Assembly (NCBI RefSeq): GCF_000253115.1
Contig: NC_014145.1
Span: 1,488,001 to 1,552,000, forward strand
DNA: 64,000 bases
Reading direction: 5' to 3'
From: Thiomonas arsenitoxydans
Lineage (GTDB): Bacteria; Pseudomonadota; Gammaproteobacteria; Burkholderiales; Burkholderiaceae_C
The notes beneath the pieces were generated by a model. It saw only the letters and a program-made list of their open reading frames with translations, did not search any database and was not told the origin of the DNA. The position numbers were made by a program, and so were the translations under genes. Positions 23,169 through 26,869 of the stretch are shown here, in pieces (the first letter of the stretch is position 1; each line of letters starts with the position of its first letter).

Positions 23169-23185
23169 CTGGCACCGGGTTTGCT
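23169..23185 (+). promoter_or_regulatory. Sigma-54 promoter for the diguanylate cyclase cassette
   Basis: CTGGCACCGGGTTTGCT carries a perfect TGGCAC -24 element, exact GG-N10-GC spacing and TTTGCT at -12. It is the best sigma-54 match in the window and lies 31 bases before ATG 23217. Confidence 0.85.
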
Positions 23186-23216
23186 AATCAGGAATCACCC
23201 TTTGATGGAGATTCCC

Positions 23217-24194
23217 ATGCGTGCCCTTGCTTTGTTGCCCAGCGCCGAACCCAAACAGCCTTCCACGCCGACTTGGAGTGTGCTCGAAGGTGGTCTGATC
23301 GAAGCGGGCTCCGTAGAGCCCGAGGCTGGACCGGCGGCGGAGACTTCGGCCCTGCGATTGGCGCGGCAGATCTACGCCGCCTGGTTTCAGCGCTGCCTGC
23401 GCCAGGGCGGCCATCGCAAAAACCCCGGGGCTGTGGCCGCGTTGCCGCGAGCGGCCATCGAACACCAGCTTGACCGGGCCATCGACCGCAGCGGGCCGGA
23501 TGCCGCCGAGTTGCTGCCGCTGCACGATGCGCAGCAGCAGCGTCTGGCTGAGCTCGGCGTCTTGATTAGCGCACTGGCCGCCTCCGACAAGCAGCATGTC
23601 CGGGCGGTGCAAACCTGGGATCGGCTGATCGAACTCGGCCTCGACACCCTGCAGGGCTTTGCCGATCTGGAGGTGGTGTTCGCCGCCCAGCGCGCGGCGC
23701 AAGACCCGCTGACTGGCCTTCCGGGCCGCGCCGCGCTGCAGCAGCGCCTGCAGGGCGAACAGTCGCTGGTGCTGCGCCAGGGCCGCATGTGCTCGGTGGT
23801 GATGCTCGACATCGACCACTTCAAGAGCGTCAATGACCAACACGGCCATCAGGCGGGCGACCGCGTGCTCGCCGCATTCGCCCGCCTGCTGCGCGGCGCG
23901 CTGCGTCCCTACGACGGCGTCTATCGCTACGGCGGCGAGGAGTTCGTGCTGGTGCTGCCCGGCGCCACCGCAGCGCAGGCGGTGCAAATCATCGACCGCA
24001 TGCGGCAGACCATCGCGCAGCGCCCACTGGTGCAGACCCAGACCGGCGGCCTGCACATCCGCTTCTCCGCTGGCGTTGCCGCGCTGAACGAGCGCGCGAT
24101 TGCGCAAACGCTGCGCTGCGCCGATGCGGCGCTGTATCACGCCAAGGCCGAAGGGCGCGATCAGGTGCGCCTCGAACGCGGCCATTGCGCATGA
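23217..24194 (+). CDS. Diguanylate cyclase (GGDEF) with uncharacterised helical N-terminus
   Basis: Makes c-di-GMP from two GTP. The GGDEF domain occupies about residues 160-322 of 325: DPLTGLPGR at the front, MLDIDHFKSVND for metal/substrate binding and GGEEF at 239-243 in the active site. An RxxD inhibitory site (RPYD, 230-233) sits exactly five residues before GGEEF, so product inhibition is predicted. The first 150 residues are mostly helix, with no membrane segment and no recognised sensor domain. ATG 23217 is preceded by GGAG at the right distance; ATG 23205 is an alternative. It is the first gene of a sigma-54-driven cassette with CheA-like, CheW-like and coiled-coil genes, which suggests local control of its activity. 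Confidence 0.93.
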   Translation: MRALALLPSAEPKQPSTPTWSVLEGGLIEAGSVEPEAGPAAETSALRLARQIYAAWFQRCLRQGGHRKNPGAVAALPRAAIEHQLDRAIDRSGPDAAELLPLHDAQQQRLAELGVLISALAASDKQHVRAVQTWDRLIELGLDTLQGFADLEVVFAAQRAAQDPLTGLPGRAALQQRLQGEQSLVLRQGRMCSVVMLDIDHFKSVNDQHGHQAGDRVLAAFARLLRGALRPYDGVYRYGGEEFVLVLPGATAAQAVQIIDRMRQTIAQRPLVQTQTGGLHIRFSAGVAALNERAIAQTLRCADAALYHAKAEGRDQVRLERGHCA

Positions 24195-25317: not shown

Positions 25318-25823
25318 CTGGCACGATCTCCTGGCTGCAGTTCCGCGTGGGCGATCAACTTCATGCGCTGGAGGCGGCCCCGGTGCGCCAGATTTTGCGT
25401 TCGCCGAAACTGCTGGCGCTGCCGCTGGCGCAGCGCCACCCGCATTGCGCGGGCCTGATGGCCTGGCAGGGACGGCCCCTGCTGGTGCTCGATCTGGGCG
25501 CCTGTCTGCTGCGCCGCCCGAGTTTGTCTCGGGGCGATGCGCGGTTTCTGGTCTGGAGCCAGGCGCAGCAGGCCGGCGTTCTGGCGGTAGATGACGTCGG
25601 CGGGCTGCTGCGGCTGTCCGCCACCACGCTTACCCGGCACTGGGCGCCGGTGCAGCCGGGGCTGCGGCCGCCGTGGAACGCCATTCGAGGGCTGTTGCAC
25701 GCTGGAGCGCCTTCACTCGCCGAGCCTTGCATTCCGCAGGCGCCCTGGGCCGAACCCATCGCCGTGTTCGATGTAGCCGCGCTGTGGCAGGCCTGCTGGA
25801 ACGCCGGGGGAGCACAACCATGA
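25314..25823 (+). CDS. CheW-like adaptor protein
   Basis: A 169-residue single-domain protein with the CheW pattern: ISWLQFRVGDQLHALEAAPV, RQILRSPKLLALP, then CAGLMAWQGRPLLVLDLGAC and GVLAVDDVGGLLRLS. CheW proteins join chemoreceptors to CheA. It is coupled by four-base ATGA overlaps both to the upstream CheA-like gene and to the downstream membrane coiled-coil gene, so the three products are probably made together. It is not beside a complete cheA, which argues for a partner within this cassette. Confidence 0.8.
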   Translation: MTGTISWLQFRVGDQLHALEAAPVRQILRSPKLLALPLAQRHPHCAGLMAWQGRPLLVLDLGACLLRRPSLSRGDARFLVWSQAQQAGVLAVDDVGGLLRLSATTLTRHWAPVQPGLRPPWNAIRGLLHAGAPSLAEPCIPQAPWAEPIAVFDVAALWQACWNAGGAQP

Positions 25824-26869
25824 AGCGCACGCCGCAACGCAGCCTGCTGCTGCTGGGCCTGTTCGCGCTGATCTGGGGCGCGGCGCTGGTGGTTGCCGCA
25901 GGTCTTGACGCCGAACCCGCGCTGCTGCTCACCGTCTGGGGCGCGGGGGCGGCTCTGCTCGTGCTGCTGGCGTTCTATCTCGATCTGTCTATTCGTCTGG
26001 ATTTGTTGCAGGTGCAGCAAGTCTTGCGCGAAGCGGTCGCCGCGCCCGATGCGCAGGCGCCGCTCAAATCGTCCCTGGCCGCCTTCTGGCAGCCGTTGAT
26101 CGACGCGGCCTCTGCAGCGCGTCAGCCCGTGGAAGACGCCGCGCGAGAGAAGGCCAAAATCGCCGCGCAAACTGCCGCCCAGCTCGCCGCTCTGCAGTCG
26201 GCGCTCGAAGCCGAGCGGGCGCAAAGCAGCGCCTGGCAGCGGCAGGCGGCTCAAGCGCAGGCCGAACTGGCTCAGCTCAGACAGCAGGCGCAGGACGCGG
26301 CCCGTGCAGTAGCGGCAGCCAAAGCCGAGGCCACTGCGGCGACCTTGCCCGACCCGCGTGAGGCGATCGAGAGCGTCGCGAGGGAACAGCGCGAACAGCA
26401 GCAGGCCGCTTGGGCGGAACTGAGTTCGCTGGCCAGCAGCCTCGCCGCCGAGGTCGAGGCGCAGATCGGCGCGGCTGCCCAGCGCGAGGCGACCGCCCAG
26501 ACGCTCGCCGCCGCCCGCGCCGAAAAACTGGCGCAAGCCGAGGCTGAGCACAAGCACAGCACCGAACAACTCGCGCAAACGGCCGAGGCGCTGGCCCTGC
26601 TGGGGCTGAACCTGCGGTTGCAACTCTCGCATCTGGCTGCCAGCCGGGCCGCTGCCGAATTGCTCGAACAAACCGAAGCCGATCTCGACGCCTTGCTCGG
26701 GGCCATCGTTCAGCCCAGGGCAGAACCCGGCCCGGTGGCGGAGTCAGCCGAGCAGCCCGCGCCAACTGCGGAGCAAGACCCCTCGCCAGCCGACGCCCTG
26801 GCCCCGCTGCTGGAGCGCCTGCATGCCGTTGCGGAGCGGGCGGCGCAGGCCGCGCAAAAAAAATCCTAA
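25820..26869 (+). CDS. Membrane-anchored coiled-coil protein of the Che-like cassette
   Basis: A 349-residue protein with two N-terminal hydrophobic segments (LLLLGLFALIWGAALVVAAG and, after a short turn, LLTVWGAGAALLVLLAFYLD), leaving a long cytoplasmic Ala/Gln/Glu-rich coiled coil from about 60 to 300. Topology resembles a receptor without a periplasmic sensing domain. I do not find the methyl-accepting hairpin motif ([11 protein letters not shown]...GFAVVA), so it is not an ordinary MCP, but its place after a CheW-like gene suggests an analogous role. The start is fixed by a GGGGGAG site and the ATGA overlap with the CheW-like gene. The fliC promoter overlaps its last codon. Confidence 0.7.
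   Translation: MKRTPQRSLLLLGLFALIWGAALVVAAGLDAEPALLLTVWGAGAALLVLLAFYLDLSIRLDLLQVQQVLREAVAAPDAQAPLKSSLAAFWQPLIDAASAARQPVEDAAREKAKIAAQTAAQLAALQSALEAERAQSSAWQRQAAQAQAELAQLRQQAQDAARAVAAAKAEATAATLPDPREAIESVAREQREQQQAAWAELSSLASSLAAEVEAQIGAAAQREATAQTLAAARAEKLAQAEAEHKHSTEQLAQTAEALALLGLNLRLQLSHLAASRAAAELLEQTEADLDALLGAIVQPRAEPGPVAESAEQPAPTAEQDPSPADALAPLLERLHAVAERAAQAAQKKS

Follow-up and report, generated by a model that had tools for sequence, protein, structure and literature searches.

A chemosensory-type gene module lacking its kinase between flgA and fliC of Thiomonas arsenitoxydans

A gene module of chemosensory type from which the kinase has been removed lies between the flagellar genes flgA and fliC of Thiomonas arsenitoxydans. 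The DNA analysed here, hereafter the window, is a stretch of 64,000 nucleotides (positions 1,488,001-1,552,000 of contig NC_014145.1, assembly GCF_000253115.1) in a genome of 3.79 Mb and two contigs. Four plus-strand genes stand between the end of flgA (23039) and the start of fliC (26964) and code for a diguanylate cyclase (DGC), a CheA-like protein of 347 residues without a kinase core, a divergent CheW-like adaptor and a membrane coiled-coil protein; the last three are called the trio below. The module is real, selected and lineage-specific. We suggest that the trio serves as a flagellum-timed, membrane-anchored scaffold which acts by docking rather than by phosphotransfer and has the DGC as a frequent client, and we give this reading a probability of roughly 55%.

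Architecture of the trio

The genes and sites of the cassette, followed by those flanking it, are listed below in window coordinates. The coordinates and gene structure given in an initial annotation of this DNA, made from the sequence alone, were correct when checked on the sequence and its open reading frames, and the ATGA overlaps it reported among the last three genes are present at 25314 and 25820. A four-base overlap of the CheW-like and coil genes (ATGA or GTGA) is possible in all 13 loci checked, the window included.

23170-23185, plus strand: sigma-54 (RpoN) -24/-12 promoter-type site, TGGCAC-N5-TTGCT, by sequence pattern
23205 (alternative start 23217)-24194, plus strand: DGC, Pfam GGDEF 9.8e-43
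24274-25317, plus strand: CheA-like protein of 347 aa without kinase core, by domain searches and alignments
24687-24773, plus strand: hexamer tandem repeat (AGCCAG)14.7, encoding the Pro-Glu part of the CheA-like linker
25314-25823, plus strand: divergent CheW-like adaptor of 169 aa, PF01584 E 1.9e-11
25820-26869, plus strand: membrane coiled-coil protein of 349 aa, with two hydrophobic helices, a coil and a conserved motif
22305-23039, plus strand: flgA, upstream neighbour, Pfam ChapFlgA 5.8e-33, start picked by eye
26867-26893, plus strand: sigma-28-like site 5' of fliC, 11 of 12 consensus bases
26964-28502, plus strand: fliC (flagellin), downstream neighbour, Pfam Flagellin_N 3.7e-34

The CheA-like protein consists of a pseudo-HPt (histidine phosphotransfer) helical bundle at about residues 19-116, a Pro/Glu linker at about 120-200 that is predicted to be disordered in a structure model, and a CheA P5-type regulatory domain at 201-345. 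Pfam searches of 12 members of this protein group returned neither the P3 dimerisation nor the P4 ATPase domain at E<=1, with the main CheA of the same genome as a positive control. This main CheA reads AFHTLKGG around the phosphorylatable His of P1; at the position of that His, 26 of the 27 loci carry Arg in the CheA-like protein and the remaining one carries Gly. The initial annotation had described an HPt-like domain without phospho-His and a CheW-like C-terminus, with no dimerisation or ATPase core between them; this description is supported, the two folds that it named corresponding to the pseudo-HPt and the P5-type domain. The HPt alignment holds 20 invariant columns among 20 rows. In our reading both ends of a CheA have been retained: a P5 domain and a P1/HPt bundle in which Arg replaces the phospho-His, with a probably flexible linker running from one to the other.

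Glu59, taken from a motif guess as the replacement of the phospho-His, was dropped because a gapless alignment to the P1 domain of Thermotoga CheA points to Arg62; neither residue is His. We also dropped the idea of a relaxed HPt in loci without the DGC: L050 lost a stretch together with the Arg, but L048 and L131 retain the Arg. An in-frame change of the (AGCCAG) array would shorten or lengthen the tether of the CheA-like protein. In a sister genus, one open frame of 473 aa (L129:6657-8078) fuses HPt and CheW, with a weak P5-like stretch between them.

The separate CheW-like adaptor of the initial annotation is borne out by the PF01584 match, which covers residues 7-109 of 169; the protein has no hydrophobic helix and is thus a small soluble protein as CheW is. 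In our alignment it reads AWQG at the position of NLRG, the canonical CheW motif.

The coil protein has hydrophobic helices at residues 9-27 and 34-52, followed by a long coiled coil. Only six residues separate the two helices, so that they do not flank a periplasmic sensor as the two transmembrane helices of a methyl-accepting chemotaxis protein (MCP) do, and HAMP was not among the domain matches listed. A conserved LLxLNxRL motif (LLGLNLRLQL at residues 260-269) precedes a predicted turn at 273-275 and sits where the hairpin tip of an MCP would fall. The two-helix membrane coiled coil of the initial annotation stands; its statement that there is no MCP signalling tip may or may not hold. In an hhalign comparison with an MCP profile, the coil tip scored above each of 30 random column shuffles. 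When the alignment was enlarged, this score was equalled by 3 of 150 heptad-preserving shuffles, and the coil upstream of the tip did better than the tip against that MCP profile; in a PDB profile search with the coil protein, unrelated coiled coils ranked above MCP. In view of these shuffle scores and this ranking, we do not claim an MCP ancestry for the coil protein.

Conservation, promoter and cyclase

The cassette was compared over 27 loci, comprising 23 from one contig scan, three more distinct loci and the window; two further regions duplicated L040 and L050 and were not counted. All 26 loci that reach far enough have flgA upstream, all 17 that extend far enough have the CheW-like and coil genes downstream (in L029, L030 and L045 the contig stops within the coil gene, and in L129 CheW is fused), and fliC follows in all 14 that reach it. 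The order is kept in three GTDB genus groups. A scattering of the four homologues, which the initial annotation had named as the finding that would speak against it, was not seen; they co-occur, and their position between flgA and fliC is kept. The ratio of nonsynonymous to synonymous substitutions (dN/dS) was 0.15-0.50 for all parts compared, indicating purifying selection, with the coil protein evolving fastest (0.50 against L034).

In 10 of the 27 loci the contig ends inside the CheA-like gene, probably at its repeat, and absences in fragmented genomes are therefore not evidence; in G207, for example, the CheW-like search missed and the HPt match lies near a contig end. Within the genus of the window, 8 of 13 genomes had a CheW-like match; a strong fliC match (E <1e-33) was seen in seven genomes, and six of these belong to the 8. 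Searching the CheW-like protein against 200 genomes of the order matched 13, the own genome included, and the remaining 12 reached E 1.3e-5 at best. A CheW profile matched 16 of 150 family genomes: the own genome, G201 and G242 carry orthologues, and the other 13 matched at E 1.5e-8 or worse, among them L056, L059 and L063, which read by eye as three consecutive CheW domains, and L054, L055 and L061, which read as a single one. These absences are soft, as G235, found later by the HPt profile, was missed by the CheW profile. The full CheA-like profile matched 36 of 399 order genomes, the own one included; judging from query range and frame length, with L087 read, the others look like the low-complexity linker or the P5 of a long CheA. 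The HPt profile matched 14 of 399 family genomes, 12 at E<=2e-20 (own genus, g140 and g133) and two weakly, and 14 of 369 class genomes, namely the own one and 13 at E 1e-6 or worse. In the samples searched, and with limited sensitivity, the module was not found beyond Thiomonas and its near relatives. The gene order that the initial annotation proposed to look for in other Burkholderiales is thus kept in the own lineage, but it is restricted to that lineage and not general to the Burkholderiales sampled.

The pattern TGGCAYNNNNNTTGCW has one match in the window, the sigma-54 site, where 0.27 would be expected, and 23 of 100 shuffled windows had at least one match, so that within the window alone the site could have arisen by chance. 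However, a TGGCA(C/T)-N5-TTGCT site is found downstream of flgA in all 26 flgA-bearing loci (22 from the first contig scan, three later ones and the window), in support of the sigma-54 site first proposed; this count takes the best or joint-best site per stretch, without a shuffle control, in loci related by descent. The sigma-28-like site of fliC overlaps the codon at which the coil gene stops, and the best sites in 11 loci had 8-11 of 12 consensus bases, scored on that stretch alone and without a chance control. The genes flgE, flgD, flgC and flgB (19160-22164, minus strand) are divergent from flgA, and no sigma-54 site of at least 12/13 bases was found near them within the window. Elsewhere in the window such sites occur at 31557 (plus), 36741 (plus) and 55498 (minus).

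The GG(D/E)EF and RxxD motifs are intact in all 22 aligned cyclases, the DGC of the window having GGEEF and an RPYD I-site, as the initial annotation held. Its N-terminus looks alpha-helical without a Pfam domain, and neither a receiver (REC) nor any other Pfam docking domain was found on the protein. Across the 22 orthologues, Arg and Trp positions are conserved in this N-terminal part (23205-23690, about 160 residues). The DGC is present in 24 of the 27 loci, directly upstream of the trio and, where the contig reaches, behind the sigma-54 site. Loci L048, L050 and L131 lack it and yet keep flgA, the sigma-54 site and the whole trio. A search of the genomes of L048 and L050 found only matches to a cassette DGC (that of L047) that start at residue 64 or later and mostly span little beyond GGDEF. 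A tree built from five flagellar proteins, with L129 chosen as the root, makes presence of the DGC ancestral; L050 and L131 are sisters (100%) and L048 adjoins them (60%), indicating one or two losses.

Possible roles of the module

Because its parts can neither make nor accept phosphate, the unit would have to act by docking. We suggest that the last three genes are one conserved unit whose products would form a chemosensory-type complex without a histidine kinase. In such a complex, contacts of the kind that P5 makes with CheW in normal arrays would hold the CheA-like protein to its CheW-like partner, and the coil protein would tie this layer to the membrane, perhaps through the LLxLNxRL hairpin. 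The pseudo-HPt on its linker may bind a partner, which could be a receiver domain, a cyclase, or a pole or flagellar protein. The plant pseudo-HPt proteins AHP6 block receivers by binding, so a His-less HPt can act by docking. Judging from the sigma-54 site, and from fliC behind its own sigma-28-like site, the trio would be made before flagellin, at the hook-basal-body stage, with the neighbouring I-site-controlled cyclase as a usual but dispensable client. The complex may influence the flagellar pole, an array, cyclic di-GMP (c-di-GMP) or motility. A more specific version, which we offer tentatively and at less than even odds, is a phosphorylation-free array, in which the coil protein as a receptor relic, the CheW-like protein and the kinase-less, His-less CheA form a lattice at the sigma-54 stage; this lattice would recruit the DGC in most lineages and something else where the DGC was lost.

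Several results weigh against the scaffold reading. By itself the HPt sequence match is weak (E 0.044), and a fold search with the pseudo-HPt gives designed helical bundles equally high scores. The CheW-like profile found no PDB chain at E<=0.001, and no significant MCP match was obtained for the coil protein. In the L129 fusion the P5 stretch falls short of significance (independent E-value 0.27), and the fused frame may itself result from an assembly indel. Ordinary cheA, cheW and MCP genes lie 2-9 kb beyond the window in the same genome, and the parts of the trio could join the arrays that they form. MCPsignal and CheW-domain matches on the minus strand at about 46439-46921, 47966-48346 and 51200-51607 point to further chemosensory genes in the window itself.

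With these ordinary genes less than 10 kb away, the trio might insert into the normal chemotaxis array and tether or dilute it in the manner of ParP, its P5 and CheW-like domains entering the ring and its coil and HPt anchoring it at the flagellar pole. We consider this possible although rather unlikely. It fits the retention of the trio where the DGC was lost; however, the sigma-54 site and the gene position link the trio to flagellar structural genes, and AWQG in place of the canonical NLRG hints at a different receptor face. ParP enters arrays with its C-terminus, by way of MCP and CheA, and its N-terminus makes polar recruitment possible (PMC5706961). The initial annotation proposed instead a dedicated scaffold that positions or gates synthesis of c-di-GMP by the cassette cyclase; such a scaffold would be a phosphorylation-free analogue of Wsp. 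The regular place of the DGC directly upstream of the trio, its intact catalytic and inhibitory sites and its ancestral presence in the tree speak for such a role, whereas the cyclase shows neither a receiver nor another docking domain in Pfam, and no match to its N-terminal 63 residues was found in the L048 and L050 genomes. Since the DGC is absent from 3 of 27 loci in which the trio and the promoter are kept, gating this cyclase cannot be the sole job of the module. As a full account the proposal is doubtful, although c-di-GMP gating by the trio may hold where the DGC exists.

A functionless, decaying remnant of a chemosensory operon, such as a Wsp-like set minus its kinase and receiver, would explain why the phospho-His, the kinase core and a recognisable MCP domain are all absent and why the coil protein evolves fastest. 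This is very improbable, because selection on all parts compared already speaks against it, together with the promoter site in every flgA-bearing locus, the invariant HPt columns and the order kept in three genus groups. The reading that we prefer is the flagellum-timed scaffold; it suggests that a sensing array can keep some of its parts for scaffolding when its usual phosphate signal is gone. If this is true, array architecture has been retained without a kinase and offers a natural test of a purely structural role for CheW/P5 lattices, and flagellar assembly would have a kinase-free link to c-di-GMP.

Comparison with known systems

No description of the four-gene set was found in the open-access literature, a search that left out most subscription papers. 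The 'che islet' of Thiomonas, with cheW, cheBDR, MCPs and a DGC/phosphodiesterase beside a shared flagellar locus, has a gene list different from that of the cassette (PMC5481541). Wsp (WspA-WspB/D-WspE-WspR), the classic chemosensory cyclase system, likewise combines a membrane helical protein, CheW-type adaptors, a CheA-type protein and a diguanylate cyclase, and acts through its kinase and receiver (PMC8552884). The cassette, unlike Wsp, has no kinase, no REC on the cyclase, no methylation enzymes among its four genes and no recognisable MCP signalling domain. The His-less HPt domains of Pseudomonas ChpA share an HPt fold without phospho-His, with a role given as unknown, but they sit in a full CheA kinase with other, His-bearing HPts (PMC10782961). 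FrzB of Myxococcus xanthus is a divergent CheW without some strands that does not bind its kinase and has a role other than receptor-kinase coupling; its system, unlike the cassette, still has the kinase FrzE (PMC6952110).

In a CheA survey, P1, P3, P4 and P5 are found in all CheA proteins, Rhodobacter CheA3, with HPt and CheW, is the unique split case, and the HATPase and CheW domains together uniquely distinguish CheA (PMC10782961). A count based on that pair would therefore miss a protein such as the 347-residue one. CheA3 of Rhodobacter (Cereibacter) sphaeroides is also an HPt and CheW protein working beside chemoreceptors, but it has 794 residues, keeps the phosphorylatable His, carries degenerate HPt, P2, dimerisation and kinase domains in its middle part, and acts together with the kinase CheA4 (PMC10782961). 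In the CheA-like protein, by contrast, this His has been lost and the structure model shows a disordered linker, and the cassette encodes no kinase partner. ParP is not known to have an HPt domain, and its gene neighbourhood differs from that of the cassette. The likeness to the ParP/ParC system of Vibrio lies in a protein that is not a kinase and whose C-terminus enters the core units of arrays and links these to the cell pole (PMC5706961). The nearest architecture is that of Rhodobacter CheA3, and the nearest functional parallel is Vibrio ParP.
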